Below are positions 741-13,953 of a stretch of 64,000 nucleotides of DNA, one piece after another (the stretch's first letter is position 1; the number at the start of each line of letters is the position of its first letter). The position numbers and the translations under genes are program-made. Source of the stretch: Sphingobacteriaceae bacterium GW460-11-11-14-LB5. Lineage in GTDB: Bacteria; Bacteroidota; Bacteroidia; Sphingobacteriales; Sphingobacteriaceae. The DNA lies in NCBI GenBank assembly GCA_002151545.1, contig CP021237.1, positions 2,294,001-2,358,000 of the forward strand. Direction: 5' to 3'. The notes below the pieces were generated by a model. The model was given only the letters and a program-made list of their open reading frames with translations, was not told the origin of the DNA and searched no databases.

Positions 741-829
741 AGCTTTCGGGGATTGAAGCTAAGGGGTGATGTACTTACGTATTCGTATTTCATTTCTTTT
801 CCATCTGTTGGCTGTGGGTTAAACTCACA
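741..829 (+). promoter_or_regulatory. Riboswitch 1 leader: conserved hairpins before the receptor start codon
   Basis: Downstream of the aptamer are a hairpin with arms AGCTT/AAGCT (741-760) and a second hairpin TGTG-n-CACA (813-829) that ends 6 bases before the ATG at 836. Both are repeated in the leader of the second riboswitch, the first one base for base. No Shine-Dalgarno sequence is present. The conserved start-proximal hairpin may be the expression platform controlling translation; this is inferred. Confidence 0.55.
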
Positions 830-835
830 ATCAAA

Positions 836-2872
836 ATGACACATAAACATTCTGCCTATGCGGGCACAATGCAGTTTTTTCTATTTTCTTCCATTTTATG
901 GACAGGATTTCTATTGCCTTTAAATACAAGGGCACAAAGCGATAGTACCCTAAAAAGCACACAACTGAAAGAAGTTCAGATTAGGGAATACCGGTTAACC
1001 GAACAAAGTAAATCGCCAACACCGGTACAAATCCTATCGGCTGATGAGCTTAAAAGGATAAACAGCCTGTCTGTTGCCGATGCCATCCGCTACCTTTCAG
1101 GTGTGCAGTTGAAAGATTATGGTGGAATAGGCGGGATGAAAACGGTTAATGTACGTAGTTTGGGCACTAATCATACTGCAGTTTTTTTAGATGGCATCCA
1201 GATTGGCAATGCGCAGAACGGCCAGGTAGATTTAGGTAAATTCTCATTGAACAATCTCGAAGAAATTGCTTTGTATAGTGGTCAAAAGCCAGAATTATTG
1301 ATTCCAGCGAAAGGTTATGCCTCAGCAAGCAGCATTTACCTCAAAACCAAAGATCCTGATTTCGAAAAAAGCCAAAAGCAAAAGATCGAGCTCGGATTAA
1401 AAAACGGATCATTCGGACTCATTAATCCATCATTAGTTTATTTGTACAAGATTAACGAAAAGCTAAAGGCCAGTATCAATACCGAATATATCCATGCAGA
1501 CGGGAAATATAAATTCAGGTACACCAACGGGGTTTTCGATACCACAGCGGTAAGAAACAATGGAAACGTGGAGCGTTTCCGTTTACAGGCTGCATTATTT
1601 GGTAAATTTAATGGCGGTAAATGGCATGCACAGGCCTATTCATTTTTATCAGACAGGGGATTACCCGGAGCAATTGTAGCCAATAGATTCGATTTTACAC
1701 AAAGAATATGGGACCGCGATTTCTTTATCCAGGGAAATGCAGAAAAAAACTTATCGAATAAATTTACCATTCTGGTGAATGGTAAATATGCCTATGTATA
1801 TCAACGCTACCTCGATCCTGATTATGTAACCACCACAGGTTTTTTAGATAACCGGTTTAAAGAACAGGAAGCATACCTGTCGGTTGCTGCAAAATATAAG
1901 ATCAGTTCAGTTTGGGAGGCTGCTTACGCATCTGATTACACCTTCCAGACTTTAGATGCCAACATATACAGGTTTCCTTATCCCACTCGCAATACCTTCT
2001 TAAATGTTTTAAGTTCATCCTTCATCTTTAAGCAGCTTAATATCCAGGCAAACCTGTTAAGCACAACCGTAGTCGATCGGGTAAAACTGTATTCTTCAAC
2101 CGGAAATAAACAGGTTTTTAGTCCAACCGTAATGCTTTCCTGGAAACTATTAAAAGATCAGGATATCAGAGTCCGTGCATTCTATAAAGACATATTCAGA
2201 ATGCCAACCTTTAACGATTTGTATTATACGTTTATCGGTAATACCCTGTTAAATCCCGAATACACCAAACAGTACGATGTTGGTGTAACCTATTTCAAGA
2301 ACTTCAAAAACCAGGAGATCAAATTTATCGATATCCAATCGGATGTATATTATAACCGGATAAAAGATAAAATTGTGGCACAACCCGGTGCAAACCTGTA
2401 CCGTTGGATAATGTACAATATCGGCCTGGTTGATATCCGTGGTTTAGAACTTAATGCAAAAACAGCATTCGAGCCACTTAGCAATTTCATCATCAACATT
2501 GGCATTAATTATACTTATCAGAAAGCGGTTGATGTTACATCAAAACTTGAAGAAACTTATCAAGATCAGATTCCTTATATCCCTGAAAATAGTGGATCAT
2601 TTCTTACCTGGTTAGATTATCATCAATGGCACGCCAACTACGGATTCATTTATACAGGATTCCGTTACAACCAGAAAGCTAACAATATTTACAACTACAT
2701 GGAGCCATGGTACACTCATGATGCAGCTATTGGTTATGAATTTAAGTTGAAAAATGGGAGCATAGGTATAAACGGAGAAGTAAATAACCTGCTTAACCAG
2801 TATTACGATATCATCCCAAATTTTCCTATGCCTGGTAGAAATTACAGGTTAACCTTAAACTATAAATTATGA
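836..2872 (+). CDS. TonB-dependent outer-membrane receptor, cobalamin-riboswitch controlled
   Basis: This 678-residue protein has an N-terminal hydrophobic export signal ending near TRAQ and then a plug domain. The TonB-box region may lie around STQLKEVQIREYRL. Plug motifs include SVADAIRYLSGVQLKDYGGIGGMKTVNVRSLG near residues 80-115. The rest is a beta-barrel ending in an aromatic/hydrophobic C-terminus (RLTLNYKL). It would import a large ligand across the outer membrane using TonB energy. The cobalamin riboswitch directly upstream and the BtuG-like lipoproteins downstream point to corrinoids as ligand. The stop overlaps the next gene by 4 bases (ATGA), so the two are translationally coupled. 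It differs clearly from the second receptor at 8978. Confidence 0.88.
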   Translation: MTHKHSAYAGTMQFFLFSSILWTGFLLPLNTRAQSDSTLKSTQLKEVQIREYRLTEQSKSPTPVQILSADELKRINSLSVADAIRYLSGVQLKDYGGIGGMKTVNVRSLGTNHTAVFLDGIQIGNAQNGQVDLGKFSLNNLEEIALYSGQKPELLIPAKGYASASSIYLKTKDPDFEKSQKQKIELGLKNGSFGLINPSLVYLYKINEKLKASINTEYIHADGKYKFRYTNGVFDTTAVRNNGNVERFRLQAALFGKFNGGKWHAQAYSFLSDRGLPGAIVANRFDFTQRIWDRDFFIQGNAEKNLSNKFTILVNGKYAYVYQRYLDPDYVTTTGFLDNRFKEQEAYLSVAAKYKISSVWEAAYASDYTFQTLDANIYRFPYPTRNTFLNVLSSSFIFKQLNIQANLLSTTVVDRVKLYSSTGNKQVFSPTVMLSWKLLKDQDIRVRAFYKDIFRMPTFNDLYYTFIGNTLLNPEYTKQYDVGVTYFKNFKNQEIKFIDIQSDVYYNRIKDKIVAQPGANLYRWIMYNIGLVDIRGLELNAKTAFEPLSNFIINIGINYTYQKAVDVTSKLEETYQDQIPYIPENSGSFLTWLDYHQWHANYGFIYTGFRYNQKANNIYNYMEPWYTHDAAIGYEFKLKNGSIGINGEVNNLLNQYYDIIPNFPMPGRNYRLTLNYKL

Positions 2873-4002
2873 GGTATTTAAAATTTTTAATATTCGTTTT
2901 GGCTTTTCCAGTAGTGATTATCAGTGCCTGTAGAAAAGATCCGCAGCCGCTACCATCCGAAATAACCAAAGTAGAACCTGAGCCAACATCAGTCATTAAA
3001 GGTTTTTATCTGGTGAATGAAGGCAATATGAACATGAATAAAGCTTCGCTCGATTATATGGACCTGGTAAACGGTATTTACACCCGTAACCTGTACAATC
3101 AGGTAAACCCCGAAGTAACCAAAGGTTTGGGCGATGTGGGGAATGATATTGGTAGGTATGGCAGTAAACTTTATGTGGTGGTTAACATATCAAACAAGGT
3201 TGAGGTACTGAACATTAAAACCGGTAAAAAAATCGGACAGATCAATATCAACAACTGCCGTTACATCACATTCAGTAATGGAAAAGCGTATGTAAGTGCT
3301 TATTTAGGCAAAGTTGGCGATCCGAAGGCCCCTAATGGGATAGTGGCTGAAATTGATACCACGGCACTAAGGGTAAATCGAACTATTGAAGTGGGCAGGC
3401 AACCGGAGGAAATGGCCATTATTGGCACCAAACTTTATGTAGCCAATTCCGGAGGATACAGTCCGCCCGACTACGAACATACGCTTTCCGTAATCGATCT
3501 TTCCAGTTTTACTGAAATTAAAAGAATCGAAGTGGCCATTAATCTCAGCCGCGTAAAAGCCGACAGTTATGGCGACCTGTACGTCAGCTCGAGAGGAGAT
3601 TATTATACCATTCCAGCTAAACTTTTTGTAATCGATACCCAAACCGACCAGGTTAAAAAGGTATTCAATATCGCGGCCAGCAACCTCGTGATAGATGATG
3701 ATTACGCCTATATCTACAGCACCGAATGGAACTACATCGAAGGCAAGAACAAGATTACCTACAACATGATCAATACGAAAGATGAAACCCTGATGGATCG
3801 CAAATTCATTAGTGATGGCACTGAAAAAGACATTAAAATCCCTTACGGAATCGCCGTTAACCCAGCCAGCAAAGATGTTTACGTAACCGATGCCAAAGAT
3901 TATGTTAGCCCTGGCAAATTACATTGTTATAGTCCCGAAGGGCGATTAAAATGGTCGGTTACCACAGGCGATATTCCAGCACACATCACATTCACAAATT
4001 AA
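2869..4002 (+). CDS. BtuG-like surface lipoprotein, YncE/DUF5074-type beta-propeller
   Basis: This 377-residue lipoprotein has a signal with lipobox cysteine (VIISACRKD, Cys about 21). It is followed by repeated strands of the YVTN/YncE propeller type, such as KLYVVVNISNKVEVLNIKTGK and KLYVANSGGY...LSVIDLSSF. In Bacteroides, BtuG is a propeller lipoprotein that sits on BtuB and captures B12. Here the gene overlaps the TonB receptor by 4 bases behind a cobalamin riboswitch, which supports the same role. It is one of three such paralogues in this operon. Corrinoid binding itself is inferred. Confidence 0.75.
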   Translation: MRYLKFLIFVLAFPVVIISACRKDPQPLPSEITKVEPEPTSVIKGFYLVNEGNMNMNKASLDYMDLVNGIYTRNLYNQVNPEVTKGLGDVGNDIGRYGSKLYVVVNISNKVEVLNIKTGKKIGQININNCRYITFSNGKAYVSAYLGKVGDPKAPNGIVAEIDTTALRVNRTIEVGRQPEEMAIIGTKLYVANSGGYSPPDYEHTLSVIDLSSFTEIKRIEVAINLSRVKADSYGDLYVSSRGDYYTIPAKLFVIDTQTDQVKKVFNIAASNLVIDDDYAYIYSTEWNYIEGKNKITYNMINTKDETLMDRKFISDGTEKDIKIPYGIAVNPASKDVYVTDAKDYVSPGKLHCYSPEGRLKWSVTTGDIPAHITFTN

Positions 4003-4011
4003 ATATATACC

Positions 4012-5127
4012 ATGAGCAAACTTTACCAAAAACACATTTTAATTATACTGGCCGCAACGGCCATATGTATTTCTGCCTGTAAAAAGGATAGAACTGAAAT
4101 AGCGGAGAAAAAACAAATCATTACAGGCACTAAAGGCATTTACATGCTTTGTGAAGGATTGATGGGAGGTGGTAACAGTGCCATTTCTTACTATGATATA
4201 GCTACAAAATTAACAGTTAAAGATTATTACAAACAGGTAAATGGTACATCGCTCGGCGAAACCGCAAACGATTTAGAGCAATACGGCAGTAAAATGTATT
4301 GTGTTGTGGCTGGTATTCAGGGTACGAAACAGTCATTTCTGGACATTATCGATATCAATACCTGCAAATCGCTAAAGAGGATTTCATTCAATTCAGCAAC
4401 AGATGGTTACCTGCCAAGGTTTGTTGCCTTTTATAAAGACAAAGCTTATGTATCGCGTTATGATGGTAAAGTGAGCCGCATCGATACGGCTACAATGGCT
4501 ATTGATGGTGAAATAATGCTTTCAGAAGGCCTTGAGCAGCTGGCGGTAGCAAACGGAAAGTTATATGCATGCAATTCATCGCACCCTTTTTATCAGAACG
4601 GAGCTAAAAATAAGGTATCAGTTATTGATCTCGCCACCTTTACCAAAACAAAAGACATTACCGTAAACAATAATCCGGTAAGAATACAAACAGCAGATAA
4701 CGGCGATTTATTCGTGGTATGCTGGAACGATTATATCATCAATAACGACCCATCGCTCGATCGAATCAGTAGTGCCAGCGATACCAAAACAGGCTCTTAC
4801 AGTTACGATCTGGGCATAATTGCGATCAATGGCTCAACAGCTTATGTAGCCAAAGATATTTATTCCAACCCTGAAATTAAATCGCTTAATACAGCAACTG
4901 GTGCCATTGGTACAGGTTTAATCACAAGCGGACAGGCCATAAATATACCTTACGGATTAACGATCAATCCCTTCAATAAAGAAGTGATTGTTGCTGATGC
5001 CAATAGCTATGGCAGCACCTCAGGATCTGCTTATGGTGTTGGAACAGATGGTAAAGTAAAATTCAGTTTTGAAACTGGCGCATTGCCTCAGCACGCTGTA
5101 TTCAATTACAGCTACAGATACGAATAA
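4012..5127 (+). CDS. BtuG-like surface lipoprotein, second propeller paralogue
   Basis: This 371-residue lipoprotein (lipobox around CISACKKD) is built like its upstream neighbour. GIYMLCEG opens the mature part, and both proteins share a block reading roughly ND-x-YGSKMY followed by VVxGIQ-type strands. The C-terminal IPYGLTINPFNKEVIVADA block parallels IPYGIAVNPASKDVYVTDA in the first copy. The gap to the previous gene is 9 bases, so the pair is co-transcribed under riboswitch 1. The divergence between copies suggests different corrinoid preferences or partners, which is inference. Confidence 0.72.
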   Translation: MSKLYQKHILIILAATAICISACKKDRTEIAEKKQIITGTKGIYMLCEGLMGGGNSAISYYDIATKLTVKDYYKQVNGTSLGETANDLEQYGSKMYCVVAGIQGTKQSFLDIIDINTCKSLKRISFNSATDGYLPRFVAFYKDKAYVSRYDGKVSRIDTATMAIDGEIMLSEGLEQLAVANGKLYACNSSHPFYQNGAKNKVSVIDLATFTKTKDITVNNNPVRIQTADNGDLFVVCWNDYIINNDPSLDRISSASDTKTGSYSYDLGIIAINGSTAYVAKDIYSNPEIKSLNTATGAIGTGLITSGQAINIPYGLTINPFNKEVIVADANSYGSTSGSAYGVGTDGKVKFSFETGALPQHAVFNYSYRYE

Positions 5128-5187
5128 GGGAGCATCATTATTCCTATCAAATTACACACAGAATAAATAATTTAATAAAACACATAC

Positions 5188-6321
5188 ATGAAAAAAAGTT
5201 ATCTCATATTAATGCTTGGTATTGCTACGATGGTATACAGTTGCAAAAAAGACAATGAAGCCGTTCCTGATGTTAACCTCTTTATTAAAGGAGAAACCAT
5301 GACTGGAAAAGTGAATACCAAAACTGTTTTTGCCGCCGGAACAAATAATGGAAAAGGCTTTAATCACCAATGGAAACTCGATGGTAAAGTAGTAAGCAGT
5401 GCTTATAACTACGATTTTACACCCCTAAAAGCCGGTACTTATGTAATTGAATATACCGCGAGCAACAACGCCGGATCTTTTTCGCACAAATACACCGTAA
5501 CGGTGCCGATTCCGGTAGTGGAGATTACCGCAAACAGCACCAAATTTATCACGACCGTTTTTGAATATCTACCAGCGCCAGGCCAGTTTATCAATGAAGG
5601 TTTGGGAAGCCTTGCAGGTGCACAGAAAATTATTGGCGATGTTAGCAAAACCAGCATGGTTACCTTAGGCGGTTTTGGTGGTTATATCATTTTTGGTTTC
5701 GACCACTCGGTAGTAAACAATACCGGTGCCGACCTCGCCATTTATGGTAATCCGATTGGTGGTACAACTCCTTTTGCTGAGCCAGGGATCGTAATGGTGA
5801 GTCAGGATATAAATGGAAATGGCAAACCTGATGATGAATGGTATGAACTCGCCGGCAGCGAATACAACAATCCGCTGACCATTAAAAACTACGAAATCAC
5901 CTACACCAATCCGAAAGGTTTTGCCAATGTAAGCTGGACAGACAATCAAGGTGGCAGCGGAACTTACGATGTAAACAATTTCCACAAACACAATTTCTAT
6001 CCAGAATTTGCACCCGATCAGGAAAAACTAACCTTAAAAGGCACATTACTGCCTTCAACATGGGGTAAAAATGGCAGTATTTTCATTAACAATGCATTTC
6101 CATGGGGTTATACCGATAGTTGGTCGATAGAGGATGATTACGCCACTAAAAGATATAACAGTTTTGATCTTGATTGGGCCGTTGATCAAACCGGAAAGAA
6201 AATCGCTTTGAAAACCATCGATTTCCTAAAAGTTTATACCGGGCAAAGAGAAAAAGGAAATACACTTCTTGGAGAAGTCTCAACCGAAGTTAAAGGCGCA
6301 GTAGATCTGGGAATTAAATAA
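5188..6321 (+). CDS. Lipoprotein with PKD-like domain and GGFGG surface-protein domain
   Basis: This 377-residue lipoprotein (VYSCKKDNEA) begins with an Ig/PKD-like domain, roughly residues 30-110, containing HQWKLDGKVVSSAYNYDFTP and AGTYVIEYTASNNAG. A larger domain follows with LGGFGGYIIFGFDHSV and a polar stretch resembling a calcium loop (DINGNGKPDDEWYELAGSE). The second domain is shared with the next gene. The function is not established. Its place in a B12-riboswitch operon between BtuG-like genes suggests that it helps bind or hand over corrinoids at the cell surface. It may be related to reported accessory B12-binding lipoproteins, but I could not confirm family membership. Confidence 0.65.
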   Translation: MKKSYLILMLGIATMVYSCKKDNEAVPDVNLFIKGETMTGKVNTKTVFAAGTNNGKGFNHQWKLDGKVVSSAYNYDFTPLKAGTYVIEYTASNNAGSFSHKYTVTVPIPVVEITANSTKFITTVFEYLPAPGQFINEGLGSLAGAQKIIGDVSKTSMVTLGGFGGYIIFGFDHSVVNNTGADLAIYGNPIGGTTPFAEPGIVMVSQDINGNGKPDDEWYELAGSEYNNPLTIKNYEITYTNPKGFANVSWTDNQGGSGTYDVNNFHKHNFYPEFAPDQEKLTLKGTLLPSTWGKNGSIFINNAFPWGYTDSWSIEDDYATKRYNSFDLDWAVDQTGKKIALKTIDFLKVYTGQREKGNTLLGEVSTEVKGAVDLGIK

Positions 6322-6324
6322 AAC

Positions 6325-7266
6325 ATGCTGATGAAAATAAAATCAATTGTAAGCTTAGCACTTTTATCTGCCATACTTCTTTCCTGCAAAAAGGAAAATC
6401 CGGCAGAAAAAGAGGAGGAAGGAGATAAACCAACAACAAACCAATCGCCATACCTCCATAAAATATATGATTTTAAGCAAGCCCCCGGACAGTTTACCAA
6501 CGACCTTGTAAAGACCGATATCCTGATCGGCAGTGCGGGCAATGGACTGGTTTCACTGGGCGGTTTTGGGGGTTACATTATATTCGGCTTCGACCACAGT
6601 GTAACCAATAGCTCAGGAGCAGACCTTGGCATTTATGGCAATCCCCTTATTGGTATAGGTATGGAATTCTCTGAGCCTGGTATTGTTTGTGTAATGCAAG
6701 ACCAGAATAAAAACGGTTTGCCTGATGATATGTGGTACGAACTAGCTGGAAGTGAATATAACGATCAGGCTACCATCAAGAATTATAAAATCACCTATTA
6801 TAAACCCTCGAAATTGACGGATGATATCCGCTGGACGGATAACCAGGGCAAAGAAGGGCTGGTATTGAGAAATCAATTCCACACGCAGGATTATTTTCCT
6901 TCCTGGGCCACTACTAATGAAATTTCTTTCACCGGAACCTTGATTAAAAACACACTTGCTCCCGGAGAAATCATTACAAATAAACCATTCAATTTTGGTT
7001 ATGCCGATAATGGATCGAGCGAATATGTAAGCTTGCAGGAACAATTTGGCAGGGGATACAATACCTTCGATATCGATTGGGCTGTTGATGCTACAGGTAA
7101 AAAAGTAACGCTTGCCTCTATCGATTTTGTAAAGGTTTATACCGGGCAAAACAGCAACGGAAATCCTTTCAGTCCGGATAATGATAACGACCGTTCGCGC
7201 TATATCGGAGAGATTTCGACAGAATTTGGCGGAGCGGTTGATCTTAAACTTTTAAAAAATAAATAA
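6325..7266 (+). CDS. GGFGG-domain surface lipoprotein, second copy without the PKD-like domain
   Basis: This 313-residue lipoprotein (lipobox LLSCKKEN) corresponds to the C-terminal domain of its upstream neighbour. Shared blocks are SLGGFGGYIIFGFDHSV, DQNKNGLPDDMWYELAGSE and the C-terminal TFDIDWAVDATGKKV...VKVYTGQ. The gap to the previous stop is 3 bases. Translation could also begin at the second ATG, 6 bases in. The polar D/N-rich loop probably binds a metal ion. It presumably arose by duplication of the neighbour with loss or gain of the PKD-like module. Its role in corrinoid uptake is inferred from the operon only. Confidence 0.65.
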   Translation: MLMKIKSIVSLALLSAILLSCKKENPAEKEEEGDKPTTNQSPYLHKIYDFKQAPGQFTNDLVKTDILIGSAGNGLVSLGGFGGYIIFGFDHSVTNSSGADLGIYGNPLIGIGMEFSEPGIVCVMQDQNKNGLPDDMWYELAGSEYNDQATIKNYKITYYKPSKLTDDIRWTDNQGKEGLVLRNQFHTQDYFPSWATTNEISFTGTLIKNTLAPGEIITNKPFNFGYADNGSSEYVSLQEQFGRGYNTFDIDWAVDATGKKVTLASIDFVKVYTGQNSNGNPFSPDNDNDRSRYIGEISTEFGGAVDLKLLKNK

Positions 7267-7280
7267 CACCATATATCAGA

Positions 7281-8384
7281 ATGAAACAATTCAACTTTAA
7301 ACAAATATTTGTAGCTGCAGCAATTTTAACAACAGGTCTTTATGCCTGTAAAAAAGACAGTGTAAATGATATACAGATTGATCCACCCGCAGGAAAATAT
7401 GATAACGGCTTTTTTGTAATCGGCGAGGGATCTTACGGACAGAGTGCCGGTGCAGTAAGCTTTTACCATTATGGCGATGATACCCTTTCCATTAGGGCAT
7501 ATGAGAAGGAAAACCCGGGAAAAATCTTATCAAATGCTGCTAAAACGAGTACTTTGCAATTTGCTTCGATAATTAATGGCAGTATTTACCTCATGAGCAA
7601 AATAAATGGTCCGATTGTTAAAATAAATGAACAGACTTTAAAAGAAGAGGCCAGATACGTACAGGAAGCCAGCAACTGGAGAAGTATTATACAGGTTGAT
7701 GGGAGCAGGGGTTTGGTCAGTGCAAATGATGGTGTGTACCAGATCGACCTGAATACGCTTACCGTTCAAAATAAACTAACAACCGTAGGCGCGGTAAATA
7801 CGGGCGATATGTGGAAGAAAGGCGATTACGTTTACCTGCTACAGAGTAATGGTGCGAAGATTGTATCTTCCAGTAACTATTCGCTGGTCAAGAGTTTTTC
7901 AAACATCAACCGTGGATTCGCACAAACACCAAATGGAAAAATCTGGGCTTCAACAGGTAGCCGTTTAATTGCAATCGACAATAATTTAGACACTGCAGGT
8001 GTTGGCCTAGCCGTTGCTGTAGGATCATTCGGTCTTGATGCACCAACCCGTATTACGGCCTCAACTAAAGAAAATGCCGTTTTCTATCATTCAGGAAAAG
8101 CAATTTATAAATATATCGATGGCGATAAAACATCCTTAGCACAGCCATTTATCAATATCACCGAAGATCCTTTTATGGTATACGGTGCTATTCGTTACGA
8201 CAGGAATAAAGATTATATCGTTGTTAACGGAATCCAGGGTTACGGTGCAGCTTCTACAGTAAATTACCTGCTCATTTACAATGCATCAACGGGTGCTTTG
8301 GTGAAAAAAATTAAATACGGTGGTGATGGGGTAACCACAGATTTTACTAAAATCTATTTCCCTGATTTAGCCATATTCCATTAA
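7281..8384 (+). CDS. BtuG-like/DUF5074 surface lipoprotein, third propeller
   Basis: This 367-residue lipoprotein (TTGLYACKKDSVND) opens its mature part with NGFFVIGEGSYGQSAGAVSFY, matching the GIYMLCEG/GFYLVNEG openings of the two earlier propeller proteins. Strand repeats run to the C-terminus (YLLIYNASTGALVKKIKY). It is the last gene of the riboswitch 1 operon, followed by a terminator at 8414-8443. It is the most divergent of the three propellers. A role in surface capture of B12 or a B12 precursor is inferred. Confidence 0.68.
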   Translation: MKQFNFKQIFVAAAILTTGLYACKKDSVNDIQIDPPAGKYDNGFFVIGEGSYGQSAGAVSFYHYGDDTLSIRAYEKENPGKILSNAAKTSTLQFASIINGSIYLMSKINGPIVKINEQTLKEEARYVQEASNWRSIIQVDGSRGLVSANDGVYQIDLNTLTVQNKLTTVGAVNTGDMWKKGDYVYLLQSNGAKIVSSSNYSLVKSFSNINRGFAQTPNGKIWASTGSRLIAIDNNLDTAGVGLAVAVGSFGLDAPTRITASTKENAVFYHSGKAIYKYIDGDKTSLAQPFINITEDPFMVYGAIRYDRNKDYIVVNGIQGYGAASTVNYLLIYNASTGALVKKIKYGGDGVTTDFTKIYFPDLAIFH

Positions 8385-8413: not shown

Positions 8414-8443
8414 AAAGGTCTGCATTTTTTTGCAGGCCTTTTT
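8414..8443 (+). terminator. Rho-independent terminator after the riboswitch 1 operon
   Basis: AAAGGTCTGCA and TGCAGGCCTTTTT form a stem (one G-U pair) around a T-rich loop and run into a T tract, 30 bases after the last lipoprotein gene. Confidence 0.8.
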
Positions 8444-8687: not shown

Positions 8688-8695
8688 TACATTTG
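8688..8695 (+). promoter_or_regulatory. Bacteroidota -7 promoter box upstream of riboswitch 2
   Basis: TACATTTG matches TAnnTTTG, immediately before the aptamer. It sits in the same position, relative to GCGCT(G)CTTTTGG, as the box before riboswitch 1. Confidence 0.5.
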
Positions 8696-8863
8696 CGCTG
8701 CTTTTGGTTCCCGGTGTAAAATCGGGATTAAAAGGGAATACAGTGTAAATCTGTAACTGTCCCGCAGCTGTAAGCTCTGTAACGTTTTTCAATCTACAAG
8801 TCACTGTTCCGCTTAACCGGTACGGGAAGACAGAAAAACGGGAGTAAGTCAGAAGACCTGCCT
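8695..8863 (+). promoter_or_regulatory. Cobalamin riboswitch 2
   Basis: This is a second full aptamer with CTTTTGGTTCCCGGTG, AAAAGGGAATACAGTG, the core CTGTCCCGCAGCTGTAAG, a B12-box variant GTCACTG and the 3' block GGGAGTAAGTCAGAAGACC. It shares most conserved positions with riboswitch 1 but differs in the variable arms. It should repress the BtuB-type receptor operon when cobalamin is present. Confidence 0.96.
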
Positions 8864-8880
8864 TTAGCATTTAATTTCAT

Positions 8881-8972
8881 AGCTTTCGGGGATTGAAGCT
8901 AGGATTGAAATACTTAACGTTTTTCGTATTTTCATTTCCTTTCCTAATCTGTTGGCTGTGGGCAAAACCACA
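8881..8972 (+). promoter_or_regulatory. Riboswitch 2 leader: same two hairpins as riboswitch 1
   Basis: The 20 bases at 8881-8900 (AGCTT-n-AAGCT hairpin) are identical to those at 741-760. The TGTGG-n-CCACA hairpin at 8957-8972 ends 5 bases before the ATG at 8978, as in leader 1. The conservation outside the aptamer argues for a shared expression platform. Confidence 0.55.
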
Positions 8973-8977
8973 ATCAA

Positions 8978-10843
8978 ATGAACAAAAAAAGAATGCTAAC
9001 TGTAGCCAGTCTGGGGCTAGCACAGTTAATGATTAGCCAGGTGGCTAATGCTCAAAATCAAGACAGTTTACAACTTAAAGATGTTGTGATTTCTGCAACA
9101 AAAAACGATCAGAAACAATCGCAAACAGGTAAAGTAGTCAGCATTATTAGTCGCGAAGTGCTCGAACGCAGTAACGGCAAATCATTACCCGATTTACTTT
9201 CAGAACAGGCAGGTATTATTATTAGTGGTGGCAACAGCAGTCAGGGGAAAGATAAAAGTATCTTTTTCAGAGGATCAGGCAGTGGTTATACCTTAGTACT
9301 TATTGATGGAATTGTACAAAACGATCCAGCGAGTATCAGCGGTACATTCGATTTACGTCTGTTTTCAATTGATCAGATTGATCATATTGAGATTTTAAGG
9401 GGCGGTCAGTCTACCATTTACGGATCTGATGCGGTTGCAGGTGTAATCAACATTGTAACTAAAAAGGGCGGACCAAAAGGAAATACCATTTACGGTGTAG
9501 CCAGTGCAGGAAGTTTCGAAACCTATAAAGGTACGATCGGTTTAAATGGCGGTGTAGAAGGTTTTTCATACAACATTAACTACACACATTTAAAAACTGA
9601 TGGGATTTCTGAAGCTGTAGCTCCAGCTGGAAGTGCGGCTATATTTGATAAGGATGGCTTTAAAACTGATGGTTTAAATGCTAACTTCGGTATCAAACTC
9701 GACAAAAACTTCTCTGTTAATCCATTTTTACGCTATTTCTATGGCGATTACAAAATAGATGAGGGTGCTTTTGCCGATGGTTTACCTACCAATAATTCTA
9801 TTTTGAAACAGTTTAGTGCAGGTTTCAACTCAGAATATAAATTCAACACAGGTAAAATAACGCTTAACTACAGCCACGAGAGTAACTCAAACAATGTAAA
9901 TTCGAGTTATGCAGGTTTCGAAAGTAAATTTTTAAACTTCGGTAAACTGAATGTAGTTGATTTATTCTACAACCAGAAATTGGGCAATAAATTAGATTTA
10001 TTGGTAGGTATCGACAACAGAAAGATGAAGTTAATTACCGATAGCAAAAACCCGACAACCAACATCTTTGCCGCTTATGGTTCATTGTTTTTACACGATT
10101 TAAGCATTTTTAACCTTGAAGTAGGTGGACGTTACAACAAACATGATCAATATGGAGAAAACTATACTTATTCTGTTACCCCAAGCATCAACATTATTAA
10201 AGAAGTAAAACTTTTTGGAACAGTATCTACTGCATTCAAAATCCCTACGCTGAATATGTTGTTTGGTCAATATGGTGCCAATCTGGATCTGAAACCTGAA
10301 AAATCTCAGAATTATGAAGCCGGTGTAAATTTAAACATGGCTGATGAAGCCTTTACTTTAAGGGTTACCAGTTTCAAACGCGATTTAACTGATGCGATTG
10401 TTTACACCACAGGTTATATTAATCAGGGTAACCAAAAATATAAAGGTTTTGAAGTAGAGCCAGCGGCAAAATTTAGTGTTTTCAATATCAATGCTTACTA
10501 TGCTTTTGTAGAAGGAAATACAGGAACAACCAATTATTTAATCCGCAGGCCAAAGCATACCTTCGGCATTAATGCAGGTGCACAGGCCACAAGCCACTTA
10601 TATGCAAGTGTTAACTTACGTTATTTTGGTAAACGTTTCGATACCAATTTCATCTCTTATTTAGACGAAGAGATGCCATCATACAACCTGTTAAATGCAT
10701 ATGTAGAATATGCCCTGGCTAAAAAACGTGTGAAAATATTTTTTGATGCCAAAAACATCCTGAACAAAAAATACACTGAAATTATTGGCTACAATACACC
10801 TGGCTTCAACTTTAATACAGGTGTAAGTTTTAATATCCGCTAA
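8978..10843 (+). CDS. btuB: TonB-dependent vitamin B12 receptor, BtuB type
   Basis: This 621-residue protein is the length expected for BtuB. It has a signal peptide ending near VANAQ and a TonB-box-like DSLQLKDVVISATK. The plug domain includes GKSLPDLLSEQAGI, FRGSGSGYTLVLIDGI and IEILRGGQSTIYGSDAVAGVINIVTKKG, all classic for this family. A 22-strand barrel follows, ending GFNFNTGVSFNIR. It sits behind cobalamin riboswitch 2. Next to it is a small membrane protein gene (gap 39 bases), probably in the same transcript. Unlike the first receptor it has no BtuG-like partner in its own operon. Confidence 0.9.
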   Translation: MNKKRMLTVASLGLAQLMISQVANAQNQDSLQLKDVVISATKNDQKQSQTGKVVSIISREVLERSNGKSLPDLLSEQAGIIISGGNSSQGKDKSIFFRGSGSGYTLVLIDGIVQNDPASISGTFDLRLFSIDQIDHIEILRGGQSTIYGSDAVAGVINIVTKKGGPKGNTIYGVASAGSFETYKGTIGLNGGVEGFSYNINYTHLKTDGISEAVAPAGSAAIFDKDGFKTDGLNANFGIKLDKNFSVNPFLRYFYGDYKIDEGAFADGLPTNNSILKQFSAGFNSEYKFNTGKITLNYSHESNSNNVNSSYAGFESKFLNFGKLNVVDLFYNQKLGNKLDLLVGIDNRKMKLITDSKNPTTNIFAAYGSLFLHDLSIFNLEVGGRYNKHDQYGENYTYSVTPSINIIKEVKLFGTVSTAFKIPTLNMLFGQYGANLDLKPEKSQNYEAGVNLNMADEAFTLRVTSFKRDLTDAIVYTTGYINQGNQKYKGFEVEPAAKFSVFNINAYYAFVEGNTGTTNYLIRRPKHTFGINAGAQATSHLYASVNLRYFGKRFDTNFISYLDEEMPSYNLLNAYVEYALAKKRVKIFFDAKNILNKKYTEIIGYNTPGFNFNTGVSFNIR

Positions 10844-10882: not shown

Positions 10883-11470
10883 ATGTCTCATTTAAAATTT
10901 AATCCACGCACTTTAATTTTGTTGTCAATAATATTGGCAATAACGGCTTTCCGTTTGCTGGTAACATTCAACTCAGATGAATTAAAGTTTGCCAATTTCT
11001 CATCAATCGGAGCGGTAGCTTTATTTGGAGGTGCATATTTTAAAGATCACCTTAAAGCATTTGCTTTTCCGCTATTGAGTTTATTTTTAAGCGATTTGGT
11101 ACTTTATACAACCATCTATAGAAAGTATGTAGATATGCTCTTGGTTCAAGAACTTTGGACATACCTTGCAATTGCACTAATGGTTTTAGCCGGTCGTTTC
11201 TTATTAAAAAAGGTAAATATTGCCAACTTATTCCTGTCTACAATTGTAATTGTATTTATCCACTGGATTGTAAGTGATATCGGTTCATGGTACGGAAACC
11301 CACTTTATACGCAAAACTTTAGTGGTTTTATAGATTGCTTAATTAAAGCCATTCCATTCGAGATCAGATTTTTAGAAGGAACAGTGATTTACGGCGCTTT
11401 ACTTTTCGGAGCATTCGAAATTTTAAAAGCAAAATACCCGGTATTAAAACTGCAAACACAAGAGTTGTAG
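10883..11470 (+). CDS. Small polytopic membrane protein, DUF6580-like candidate transport component
   Basis: This 195-residue protein has about five hydrophobic segments (roughly residues 10-30, 38-56, 58-76, 90-107, 118-134 and a C-terminal one). The family looks like the Bacteroidota DUF6580 group, often placed beside B12-riboswitch genes; this assignment is from memory. It follows btuB by 39 bases and precedes a terminator. It may be a substrate-binding membrane component (ECF S-like) or a permease for cobalamin or a precursor across the inner membrane, because no BtuC is present. That role is inference. Confidence 0.6.
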   Translation: MSHLKFNPRTLILLSIILAITAFRLLVTFNSDELKFANFSSIGAVALFGGAYFKDHLKAFAFPLLSLFLSDLVLYTTIYRKYVDMLLVQELWTYLAIALMVLAGRFLLKKVNIANLFLSTIVIVFIHWIVSDIGSWYGNPLYTQNFSGFIDCLIKAIPFEIRFLEGTVIYGALLFGAFEILKAKYPVLKLQTQEL

Positions 11471-11601: not shown

Positions 11602-12543
11602 ATGAAAGTTGTTTCCTTTTTACCTGCCGCTACAAAAATGATTTACGATATGGGCCTGCAGGAATACCTGCATGGTGTAACATTCGAATGTCCTAAAGAG
11701 GCGGCAGATCAACCCAAAGTGGTACGTTGCATATTAGAAGGCAAAAACTATTCGAGCATCGAAATCGACCGGATCTTTTCAGCATCAAAAGCACAGGGCA
11801 AAAGTTTGTATTGGGTAGATGATGCACTGCTGGAAAGCATCGCACCTGATGTGGTTTTCACGCAGGATATATGCGAAGTTTGCAATATCGATACCGTTTG
11901 TACCGAAACAGCGGTAATGAAGCTTAGCAAACAGCCAACACTGGTTCCCTTATCGCCAAATAACTTACAGGATGTTTTCGAATGTGCCATTACCATTGCC
12001 AGGGCTTTAGGGAAGGAAGAAGTGGCTTTAAATTACCTCGCAGGCCTGCAAAAGAAAACAGATCACATTTTAGATCAGCTTAGGGCAAACCGTGCACCAC
12101 TAAAAAGGATCATGCTGATGGAGTGGATCGAACCGATCTACAACTGCGGGCATTGGATTCCTTTTCAGATTGCGGCAGCTGGTGGTGTAGATATGTTGTC
12201 TAATCCCGGAGGCGACTCTATCGTAACCCAATGGGATAAAATCCTGAAATATAATCCAGAGGTACTGGTTATTGCACCATGTGGTTTTGATATGAACAGG
12301 AGTATGGAAGAAATGGAGCTGTTAACCTCAAAACCAGGTTGGAAAGATCTGGAGGCCGTAAAAAACAACCAGGTTTACATTGCCGATTTTGATATGTTTA
12401 CCCAACCGAGTGTAGGTACCCTGGTTGAAGGTATCCAGGCCTTAGCCTGTATGTTCCACCCGGAGATATTTAAGGCAGACGAAAATATAGCCAAAAAATT
12501 CATCAACCACAGCCAGTCTGTGAAATCATTTAAATCTGTGTAA
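11602..12543 (+). CDS. BtuF-like cobalamin-binding protein lacking a signal peptide
   Basis: This 313-residue protein resembles the BtuF/FepB periplasmic-binding fold: VVSFLPAATKMIYDMGL at the start, then DVVFTQDICEVC and LVPLSPNNLQDVFE. The two lobes are joined by a helix near residues 155-170, and EVLVIAPCGFD lies in the C-lobe. The first residues form beta-strand 1 of the fold. There is no leader and no upstream in-frame extension, so the product should stay in the cytoplasm. Cysteines (ICEVCNIDTVC) are clustered near residues 93-101. It may bind corrinoids inside the cell. The next gene starts 8 bases downstream. Confidence 0.72.
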   Translation: MKVVSFLPAATKMIYDMGLQEYLHGVTFECPKEAADQPKVVRCILEGKNYSSIEIDRIFSASKAQGKSLYWVDDALLESIAPDVVFTQDICEVCNIDTVCTETAVMKLSKQPTLVPLSPNNLQDVFECAITIARALGKEEVALNYLAGLQKKTDHILDQLRANRAPLKRIMLMEWIEPIYNCGHWIPFQIAAAGGVDMLSNPGGDSIVTQWDKILKYNPEVLVIAPCGFDMNRSMEEMELLTSKPGWKDLEAVKNNQVYIADFDMFTQPSVGTLVEGIQALACMFHPEIFKADENIAKKFINHSQSVKSFKSV

Positions 12544-12551
12544 CCATATCT

Positions 12552-13238
12552 ATGAAATTAGTCGTTTTAACAGGAGCAGGGATCAGTGCCGAAAGTGGGT
12601 TAAAAACATTTAGGGATTCTGATGGATTATGGGAGGGCTATAATGTTTACGATGTGGCTACCCCCGAAGCCTGGGAGAGAAATCCCGAATTGGTACAGGA
12701 ATTTTATAACGAAAGGAGAAGACAGGTTTTAGCTGCAAAACCCAATCTGGCCCACCAGTTACTGGCCGAATTGGAAAAAGACTTCGACGTTGAGATTATT
12801 ACCCAAAACATTGATGATTTGCACGAAAGGGCAGGCTCAACCAAAGTGACACACCTTCATGGTGTAATTACCAAATCTCAATCTGATAGAAAACCGGAAT
12901 TAACCTATCCCATTGCAGGGTCGGAGATTAAAATGGGCGAGCTTTGCGCGCTGGGTTCCCAACTTCGTCCGCATGTAGTGTGGTTTGGCGAGGCAGTACC
13001 CATGATTGAAGTAGCCGCTAAACTCTGCAAACAGGCCGATTTGTTCGTACTCATCGGAACTTCATTAGCCGTTTACCCGGCAGCAGGTTTAATTGATTTT
13101 GTTCCTTCCTTTGTTGACAAATACATTATCGATCCAAAAACACCTGATGTAAAACGTTATAAAAACGTGATCAACATTGAGAAAAACGCGGTAGAAGGTG
13201 TTGCCACTTTAAAAGATATCTTAGCCAATGCCAGATAA
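12552..13238 (+). CDS. Sir2-family NAD-dependent protein deacylase, CobB-like, without zinc cysteines
   Basis: This 228-residue sirtuin shows the NAD motif GAGISAESGLKTFRD, TQNIDDLHERAG, the catalytic His in LHG, and GTSLAVYPAAG. The class III signature Y-x-x-R (EFYNERRR, near residues 55-62) is present, which in SIRT5 and CobB marks desuccinylase/demalonylase activity. The four zinc-binding cysteines usually found between the catalytic His and RPHVVWFGE are missing; only one Cys remains there. It overlaps the next gene by 11 bases and is 8 bases after the BtuF-like gene, so these three form one operon. The reason for linkage with B12 genes is unknown. Confidence 0.88.
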   Translation: MKLVVLTGAGISAESGLKTFRDSDGLWEGYNVYDVATPEAWERNPELVQEFYNERRRQVLAAKPNLAHQLLAELEKDFDVEIITQNIDDLHERAGSTKVTHLHGVITKSQSDRKPELTYPIAGSEIKMGELCALGSQLRPHVVWFGEAVPMIEVAAKLCKQADLFVLIGTSLAVYPAAGLIDFVPSFVDKYIIDPKTPDVKRYKNVINIEKNAVEGVATLKDILANAR

Positions 13239-13953
13239 AAAGATTTGCATTTTTAACTGGAGTGGTGGTAAAGACAGTACATTGGCTTTACATTATGTTT
13301 TACAAGACCCTACAATCGAAATCCGTTACCTGATTACGACAGTCACTGAAAAATACAATCGTGTTTCGATGCATGGTGTTAGGGAAGCTTTACTCATTAA
13401 ACAAGCCGAAAGTATTGGGATTCCGCTGTATCAGATCCGTTTGGGCGAAATGCCGGATATGGAAACCTACGACCGTACCATGAAGCATCATCTTTCTAAG
13501 TTTAAAGAGGAGGGCATTACGCATTCTATTTTCGGTGATATTTTTTTAGAAGACTTACGTAGCTATCGGGAGAACAAATTGGCCGAAATTGGGCTTAAGG
13601 CTCTTTTTCCGCTCTGGAAAAAAAACACGAAAGATTTGATTGGTGAATTTTTAAACCTGAACTATAAAACCATCATTGTTTGCACGCAGCAAAATCTCGA
13701 AAATTTCTGTGGAAAAGTAATCAGTCATGATTTAATTGATCAGTTACCTGCAGATATTGATCCTTGCGGAGAAAACGGAGAGTTTCATACTTTCGCATTT
13801 GAAGGCCCAATTTTCAAGGATAAAATCACCTTCACCACCGGAGAGAAGGTATTCAGAACTTATAATGCCCCAGGCAAAACCAGCACAGATGATGATTCAC
13901 CATGTTCAACCACAGCACTTTCGGGCTTCTGGTATATGGATTTGTTAGAATAA
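13228..13953 (+). CDS. PP-loop ATP pyrophosphatase, Dph6/DUF71 family
   Basis: This 241-residue protein begins with the PP-loop signature FNWSGGKDSTLAL, which binds ATP for adenylation of a substrate. It then shows the family blocks MHGVREALL, SIFGDIFLEDLRSYRE and DPCGENGEFHTFAFEGPIF. The eukaryotic relative makes diphthamide, but bacteria lack that modification, so the substrate here is unknown. The family recurs next to B12-transport genes in Bacteroidota, suggesting an amidation step in corrinoid salvage; this is inference. The start overlaps the sirtuin gene by 11 bases. Confidence 0.85.
   Translation: MPDKKICIFNWSGGKDSTLALHYVLQDPTIEIRYLITTVTEKYNRVSMHGVREALLIKQAESIGIPLYQIRLGEMPDMETYDRTMKHHLSKFKEEGITHSIFGDIFLEDLRSYRENKLAEIGLKALFPLWKKNTKDLIGEFLNLNYKTIIVCTQQNLENFCGKVISHDLIDQLPADIDPCGENGEFHTFAFEGPIFKDKITFTTGEKVFRTYNAPGKTSTDDDSPCSTTALSGFWYMDLLE

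Follow-up and report, generated by a model that had tools for sequence, protein, structure and literature searches.

How does one vitamin B12 switch come to control a whole series of lipoprotein genes, and where does the vitamin go once it has passed the outer membrane? These questions are raised by a stretch of 64,000 nucleotides from Sphingobacteriaceae bacterium GW460-11-11-14-LB5 (contig CP021237.1, positions 2,294,001 to 2,358,000; hereafter the window), in which a cobalamin riboswitch is followed by the gene of a TonB-dependent receptor and by five lipoprotein genes. The genome is of the Pedobacter type and consists of one contig (99.95% complete). Its closest relatives are Pedobacter, and the BtuH domain is up to 95% identical to that of P. 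ginsenosidimutans. Sequence comparison and analogy indicate that the six genes very probably form a B12-repressed operon for surface capture and import of cobamides, related to the BtuBG/BtuH/BtuK systems of Bacteroides but larger. With somewhat less confidence, we consider it likely that the DUF6580 membrane protein of the neighbouring operon represents a new family of stand-alone S-component-like cobamide carriers, unrelated in sequence to BtuM, which replaces BtuFCD in most Pedobacter and together with the surface system constitutes a B12 route free of ATP-binding cassette (ABC) transporters. The same reading holds that BtuH and BtuK are a functional pair that was inherited, moved and sometimes fused as a unit, apart from BtuB-BtuG.

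A candidate operon for surface capture of cobamides

The operon and its control elements are arranged as follows (all on the + strand).

545-740, +: cobalamin riboswitch 1 (RF00174; 109.4 bits, E 1.7e-26; gathering score 31.5)
836-2872, +: P1, predicted TonB-dependent receptor, BtuB1 ortholog (8blw_A, E 9.5e-142)
2869-4002, +: P2, predicted BtuG lipoprotein of lineage Ga, adjoining the receptor (8ptf/8ptd, E 2e-46)
4012-5127, +: P3, predicted BtuG lipoprotein of lineage Gb (8blw_B, E 1.3e-43; 8ptf, E 1.5e-43)
5188-6321, +: P4, predicted BtuH lipoprotein of lineage Ha (8blw_B, E 3.2e-54; 7biz, E 4.9e-49)
6325-7266, +: P5, predicted BtuH lipoprotein of lineage Hb (8blw_B, E 1.8e-51; 7biz, E 8.6e-44)
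7281-8384, +: P6, BtuK-like propeller lipoprotein (DUF5074; PF16819, 173.9 bits; 9s6c, E 1.5e-8)
8414-8441, +: intrinsic-terminator-like hairpin (11-pair stem and T tail) directly 3' of the P6 gene

In the list of open reading frames, neighbouring genes of the six overlap by 4 bases at the closest and are separated by 60 bases at the widest. All six are under purifying selection, with ratios of non-synonymous to synonymous substitution rates (dN/dS) of 0.037-0.075; these figures refer to the comparison with P. ginsenosidimutans (L021) only, since against L009, L010 and L011 dS was above 1 throughout, apart from the receptor against L010, for which the ratio was undefined. The hairpin is read as a terminator because of its position behind the last gene and not because of the number of such sites, of which 5 were seen across the window and 8.1 were expected by chance. 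The inventory of one riboswitch, one receptor and five lipoproteins that an initial annotation had given was thus confirmed, the riboswitch lying just outside the interval 836-8384 in which it had been placed. Its broader proposal of an expanded, B12-switched surface capture system around a BtuB-type receptor is supported by the riboswitch, the BtuB1-type receptor and the G, H and K families.

When P1 was compared with solved chains, BtuB1 (8blw_A) scored 477 bits over residues 28-675 and the next chain, BtuB3 (8p98_A), 81 bits; by this measure P1 is a BtuB1 ortholog. In BtuB3, an aromatic residue of extracellular loop 8 (EL8; Tyr538, Trp in BtuB1) contacts B12 and the tip of the loop is required for growth on B12 (PMC10404256). 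The corresponding residue of P1 is Trp524, and tryptophan was found in all 38 BtuB1-type receptor rows. A G or GH gene lies at most 400 bases behind the receptor in 37 of 38 receptor reading frames, the exception being the first half of a split gene.

Inspection by eye indicated a signal peptide and a lipobox cysteine followed by (K/R)-K-(D/E) in all five proteins P2 to P6, each of which belongs, as judged by sequence, to a family with proven B12-binding members. The initial annotation had counted three BtuG-like propellers. This holds for P2 and P3, which match B12-bound BtuG1 across the propeller (8ptf, with the E values listed above) and are classified as BtuG1-type lipoproteins, and does not hold for P6, which is BtuK-like. 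At a threshold of E 0.001, P2, P3 and P6 are the only DUF5074 proteins of the whole genome. After the BtuG2 numbering had been verified on 11 of 11 named residues, it can be seen that both P2 and P3 retain the pocket residues Tyr239, Tyr316 and Tyr335 (49, 56 and 49 of 57 G rows). These sites are weak evidence, since Tyr335 is the only one of five that is retained in BtuG1, whose B12 binding is proven (P, D, gap, F and Y at positions 194, 239, 272, 316 and 335).

P4 and P5, the only GGFGG proteins of the genome at E 0.001, had been suggested to be a further B12-binding family. Both match the H domain of 8blw_B (the BtuG1 chain) and BtuH2 (7biz), and the E values for 7biz rule out a new family: P4 and P5 are assigned to BtuH, a B12-binding family whose crystal structure was published in 2022 (PMC8941943). 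The N-terminal part of P4 gave a weak PKD-like match (PKD_3, 22.2 bits, below the cut-off of 26.3). For BtuH2, the ligand residues are Gln333, Asn399, Phe401, His476, Tyr510, Trp511, Trp577 and Leu578 (PMC8941943), and all eight letters fell in place in our numbering. At these sites P4 carries Q, N, I, H, I, F, L and L, and P5 carries Q, N, L, H, I, I, Y and I. Of 69 BtuH rows, 65 have Gln333, 65 have Asn399 and 54 have His476. In the two Pedobacter lines, Ha and Hb, the first two are present in 38 of 38 rows and His476 in 30; this count leaves out all other genera and two diverged Pedobacter rows, which keep Gln333 and Asn399 and not His476.

Several observations weigh against the capture reading or against details of it. 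The surface exposure of P2 to P6 is deduced from the lipobox alone. The EL8 position was set by pairwise alignment; by our count, Tyr538 and Leu531 of the BtuB3 chain match the paper but residue 524 is Ile and not Ser. Trp194 and Trp272 of BtuG2 are gap columns in 54 and 57 of 57 G rows. In place of the corrin-amide residues Tyr510 and Trp511 of BtuH2, P4 has I and F and P5 has I and I, and Trp577 is Leu in P4 and Tyr in P5, so that affinity may be lower. P2 adjoins the receptor here and in related Pedobacter loci, but it is P3 that groups with BtuG1, the lid solved on B. thetaiotaomicron BtuB1, which speaks against the simple rule that P2 is the lid. Finally, BtuK1 of B. thetaiotaomicron binds B12 and its paralogue BtuK2 does not (PMC12751083), and P6 may therefore not bind either.

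The leaders behind the two riboswitches of the window (741-838 and 8880-8980; the second riboswitch is listed below) have a common conserved stretch that reaches the start codon and ends in a small hairpin (TGTGGG...CTCACA or TGTGG...CCACA) right before the ATG; many Pedobacter leaders are alike. The leaders fold slightly better than shuffled sequences (z -2.1 and -1.5), and the conserved stretch with its hairpin is probably the expression platform of both riboswitches. The leader motif CUGUGGG could conceivably pair with CCCGCAG in the aptamer instead, but the motif is changed in the second leaders of two related loci (L033, L037), which speaks against this. A third cobalamin riboswitch of the genome (C1:5197433-5197639, L071) precedes a gene that we take to be MetE-like. 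No literature was found on Pedobacter and cobalamin riboswitches, and among the matches listed for any two of Pedobacter, BtuB and BtuG no work was, by its title, on this system.

The BtuK-like propeller and its pairing with BtuH

Among PDB sequences up to E 1, P6 matched only the chains of 9s6c, an entry named 'B12 Binding protein - BtuK1' in the fold search, and no BtuG chain. A single-sequence phmmer search up to E 10 gave no match between P6 and P2 or P3, and both results rule out P6 as a BtuG. On a BtuG profile, P6 scored 38 bits versus 441 for P3 and 563 for P2. The AlphaFold model of P6 (mean predicted local distance difference test, pLDDT, 76.9) aligned best with BtuK1 (9s6c_A; Z 33.0, 2.3 Å, 304 residues, of which roughly 20% are identical). 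BtuG2 (32.5) was level with it, and BtuK2 (4r5o, 29.7) ranked behind both. The predicted fold is the same as that of BtuG. Sequence and model together suggest that P6 is a BtuK-like, distant cousin of the BtuGs P2 and P3. Since 9s6c and 4r5o proved to be BtuK1 and BtuK2, we prefer BtuK over BtuL, whose gene also lies beside that of BtuH2 in B. thetaiotaomicron and which did not enter the sequence comparison. The profile PF16819 (DUF5074) scored 174-248 bits on four BtuK-type and 35-59 bits on three BtuG-type proteins, and this Pfam family appears to be chiefly BtuK. An Elizabethkingia vesicle study reportedly mentions DUF5074.

To place the operon, we compared the window with 52 related loci, all of them found through BtuH, so that absence of BtuH is invisible in this set. 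The order receptor-G-G-H-H-K was observed in 6 loci and the window (the K match is weak in L017), and simpler Pedobacter loci read receptor-G-H. In Bacteroides acidifaciens, a riboswitch-like box precedes receptor-G-H-K, and genes resembling BtuF, BtuC and BtuD are oriented divergently from it; a second locus has a G-H fusion followed by a small lipoprotein. One locus of Phocaeicola abscessus (L046) contains four genes of the BtuH type, of which three have diverged far. In three genomes congeneric with that of the window (G039, G063, G102), three BtuH-type matches stand in a row, and two of the three are weaker.

In 29 Pedobacter loci including the window, BtuK and a BtuH of the P5 line occurred together in 16 (L017 included), each without the other once, and neither in 11. 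Next, we counted both families in 119 congeneric genomes, taking for BtuK the 45 matches above 400 bits (the remaining matches, at most 58.2 bits, were left out; in the genome of the window the weaker match is P3) and for BtuH all 108 matches listed, weak ones included. BtuK was present in 45 genomes, all of which have BtuH; 23 genomes have BtuH without BtuK and 51 neither. BtuH lies directly upstream of BtuK on the same strand in 43 of the 45 (at most 350 bases away in 42, 1255 in one), and in the other two the genes are on different contigs. Moreover, seven loci of uncultured Bacteroidales, several labelled rumen, encode a BtuH-BtuK fusion, H first, behind a riboswitch-like box (L052-L056, L058, L060; 855-872 residues); the one fusion scanned, L054, ends dockerin-like. 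In B. thetaiotaomicron, btuK1-btuK2-btuH1 are consecutive (PMC12751083). The available literature on these proteins yielded no statement of a BtuH-BtuK pairing, and the position of BtuK just behind BtuH in most BtuK genomes, together with the fusions, is new here.

The pairing also bears on the possibility that P6 does not bind B12 itself and serves in vesicle loading or in the handover from BtuH to BtuG. Apart from the tie to BtuH (43 of 45, fused in 7 loci), such a role would fit the resemblance of the non-binding BtuK2 to BtuK1 and the finding that BtuK1, BtuK2, BtuJ1 and BtuL are major contributors to the protein composition of B. thetaiotaomicron vesicles (PMC12751083). However, the sole PDB sequence match of P6 up to E 1 is BtuK1, the binding paralogue, BtuK2 being reached by structure, and the predicted fold equals that of B12-binding propellers. 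We regard the non-binding alternative as somewhat doubtful, although it is the best placed of the rival explanations.

DUF6580 and the inner-membrane step

The terminator-like hairpin is followed by a second B12 operon.

8688-8879, +: cobalamin riboswitch 2 (RF00174; 111.8 bits; gathering score 31.5), which opens the operon
8978-10843, +: second receptor, classical BtuB-type, no adjoining lipoprotein genes (TIGR01779, 271.2 bits, below the cut-off of 599.7)
10883-11470, +: DUF6580 membrane protein, candidate inner-membrane B12 carrier (PF20221, 167.4 bits)
11602-12543, +: protein with a BtuF-like binding-protein fold, no signal peptide by eye (PF01497, 61.2 bits)

The genome contains MetH, and CbiC (cobamide synthesis) was not found in it. 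At E 0.001 there was no match to a FecCD-type permease in the genome, the same search being positive in 13 of 14 control genomes; a BtuC permease was thus not detectable. The DUF6580 gene was placed in 20 cases: it lies 35-41 bases behind a classical btuB in 11 loci and the window, 38-172 bases behind BtuK or BtuH in 7 loci, and 1545 bases on in one.

DUF6580 was present in 106 of the 119 congeneric genomes and missing in 13, and FecCD proteins were found in 52 genomes (87 matches). Comparison with one BtuC gave scores for 86 of these 87; the one without a hit is the second member of a neighbouring pair in G047. Fourteen proteins reached at least 519 bits, the Bacteroides BtuC 254 bits and the other 72 at most 156 bits, and in a tree with 7 other FecCD proteins the 14 grouped with the Bacteroides BtuC (99% in the Shimodaira-Hasegawa-like approximate likelihood ratio test, SH-aLRT). 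All six annotated loci among the 14 show a row of BtuF-like, BtuC and BtuD-like genes (the BtuF and BtuD names are our assumption), and a cobalamin riboswitch was detected at five of seven loci scanned. The 14 BtuC genomes comprise the 13 without DUF6580 and one with both; in the remaining 105 genomes DUF6580 occurs alone, so that no genome is without either (Fisher 1.8e-16 over 119 genomes, uncorrected for kinship). In two of the 13 genomes that lack DUF6580 (L013 and L014, probably P. antarcticus and P. cryoconitis), BtuH falls inside the window's own line and the BtuCs form a pair apart from the remaining ones. It therefore seems that DUF6580 and BtuC were swapped at least two times, perhaps not much more often. 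Five Pedobacter BtuFCD loci (L093-L097) lie among cobamide-salvage-like genes, presumably CobS, CobT, CbiB and CobQ, and genomes with DUF6580 and those with BtuFCD may differ in salvage too.

To characterize the DUF6580 fold, an AlphaFold model was built from 15 sequences (pLDDT 79.5). In VIA-align, the two best rows were BtuM with B12 (Z 13.7 and 13.6; 3.5 and 3.4 Å; 167 and 166 residues), and the best 17 rows (Z 13.7-8.9) were all S-components of energy-coupling factor (ECF) transporters or CbiM/NikM-type cobalt/nickel subunits, with the next row at 6.6; 4huq and 4m5b are taken by us to be of these S-component and cobalt/nickel types. The best Z values are close to the level of about 13, below which helical proteins may align by chance, and this match is support and not proof. 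By sequence, no match to BtuM was obtained up to E 10, which rules out BtuM as a sequence relative. The invariant cysteine of BtuM (Cys80, loop 3) is absent from DUF6580, whose sole cysteine column, Cys152 (14 of 15 rows), is remote in the model from the region of helices 3-4; an invariant His127-Trp128 is one among several invariant sites. EcfT (PF02361) was above its cut-off in none of the 119 genomes, with one sub-cut-off fragment containing stops in G012, and BtuM hosts likewise lack an ECF module (PMC6072759). DUF6580 is therefore not a member of BtuM but may work alike.

An alternative is that DUF6580 has another B12-linked task and a different permease carries the vitamin. A Foldseek search with the model gave no significant match (best E 0.49, an unrelated chain), which weighs against a carrier, as do the missing BtuM sequence match and cysteine and the perhaps few independent swaps within one genus. 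On the other hand, 118 of the 119 genomes have exactly one of DUF6580 and BtuC, DUF6580 sits in operons with B12 riboswitches, and its S-component-like predicted fold has BtuM as best match. We consider the alternative unlikely and DUF6580 a strong candidate for the protein that carries B12 across the inner membrane. The name DUF6580 was found in no literature.

The BtuF-like protein keeps a length of 309-314 residues in 10 related loci; it shows no visible signal peptide and is perhaps a cytosolic B12 acceptor. The second operon closes with a gene presumably of the Sir2 type and a Dph6-like gene (12552-13953), which have relatives in 16 and 11 other loci.

Paralogous lines, proposed route and meaning

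Why two G and two H proteins are kept can be asked of their trees. In the G tree, P3 is one of 18 Pedobacter rows that form a line (100/100), and this line is joined by BtuG1 and its B. acidifaciens relative (98/100). P2 lies outside the line in a weakly supported group with Bacteroidales G proteins (92/54); the BtuG2 branch is very long, with a risk of long-branch joining, and the deep root was not used. In the H tree, P4 falls into a clade of 25 rows that includes Chitinophagaceae (98/97), which leaves out P5; the latter is placed in a Pedobacter group of 17 rows (81/86), 14 of which cluster with 100/99. A recent tandem duplication is ruled out by the trees, in which these clades separate P2 from P3 and P4 from P5. 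Position 577 of BtuH is L, S or I in 18 of 21 Ha rows and Y, F or W in 15 of 17 Hb rows.

These data bear on a dosage explanation, in which the extra copies only increase the amount of surface binder and have no distinct role. It would fit the copy number, which varies from none to three G and from one to three H between Pedobacter loci. However, the clade of P3 and BtuG1 excludes P2, that of P4 excludes P5, and each H line keeps its own residues at position 577, which does not look like recent duplicates, and we judge pure dosage improbable. Still less probable is a specialization of the paralogues for different cobamides, for which the separate maintenance of two G and two H lines across Pedobacter and the difference at position 577 could be quoted, but cobamides differ in the lower ligand, which the contacts known for BtuG and BtuH leave aside, and one G and one H suffice in some congeneric loci. 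The tuning to different corrinoids envisaged in the initial annotation is therefore not supported: the corrin ring and the nucleotide loop are what BtuG2 and BtuH2 grip, with hardly any contact to the lower ligand, and a broad range of bound corrinoids is deduced by the authors (PMC8941943, PMC10404256). The pocket differences between P4 and P5 concern corrin-amide contacts and could affect affinity.

The lipoprotein operon represents an expanded form of a system already known. Operon 1 of B. thetaiotaomicron reads btuK1-btuK2-btuH1, a second riboswitch and btuB1-btuGH-btuJ1 (PMC12751083), and has in common with the present operon the BtuB1-type receptor, the BtuG1, BtuH and BtuK families and the cobalamin riboswitch (PMC12751083, PMC10404256). 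In contrast, G and H are separate genes here, with two lines each, and all genes lie behind one riboswitch. There is no BtuJ-type (DUF4465) match among the 10 proteins scanned from the two operons, the rest of the genome not having been searched, and no BtuC was found in the genome. With BtuH2 (BT_1956, 7biz), P4 and P5 share the B12-binding C-terminal domain with Gln333, Asn399 and His476, but Tyr510, Trp511 and Trp577 are replaced, and of the three PKD domains in a row in BtuH2, P4 has at most one weak PKD-like match and P5 none. P6 has in common with BtuK1 (9s6c) and BtuK2 (BT1487, 4r5o) the propeller fold, the sequence match to BtuK1 and a gene beside BtuH; it differs by its low identity over the fold and its place at the end of the operon. 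BtuM of Thiobacillus denitrificans, a solitary S-component-like B12 transporter (PMC6072759), resembles DUF6580 in size, predicted fold, location in a B12 operon and hosts mostly without BtuC and without EcfT, and is set apart by sequence, the invariant cysteine and a different phylum.

From these elements the following route may be proposed. By analogy with Bacteroides, scarce B12 would lead the riboswitch to permit expression of the operon. BtuH and BtuK would catch cobamides at the surface and hand them to the BtuG lid, which would close on BtuB1; EL8 of the receptor, with its kept Trp524, would push the vitamin from the lid into the barrel, and TonB would drive it into the periplasm. B12 would then cross the inner membrane via DUF6580 (10883-11470) and not via BtuFCD, and feed MetH.

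Our data suggest that the surface B12 capture of gut Bacteroides is a kit common to Bacteroidota, which other genera expand differently. B12 scavenging beyond the gut has already been argued for DUF4465 proteins (PMC13398666). Three 'unknown' proteins gain names, two as BtuH and one as BtuK. Many B12-requiring bacteria have an outer receptor but no BtuCDF (PMC6072759), and for this gap in B12 uptake DUF6580 is a specific candidate family. Encoded in the operon next door, it is the part likely to surprise specialists most, and it is directly testable.

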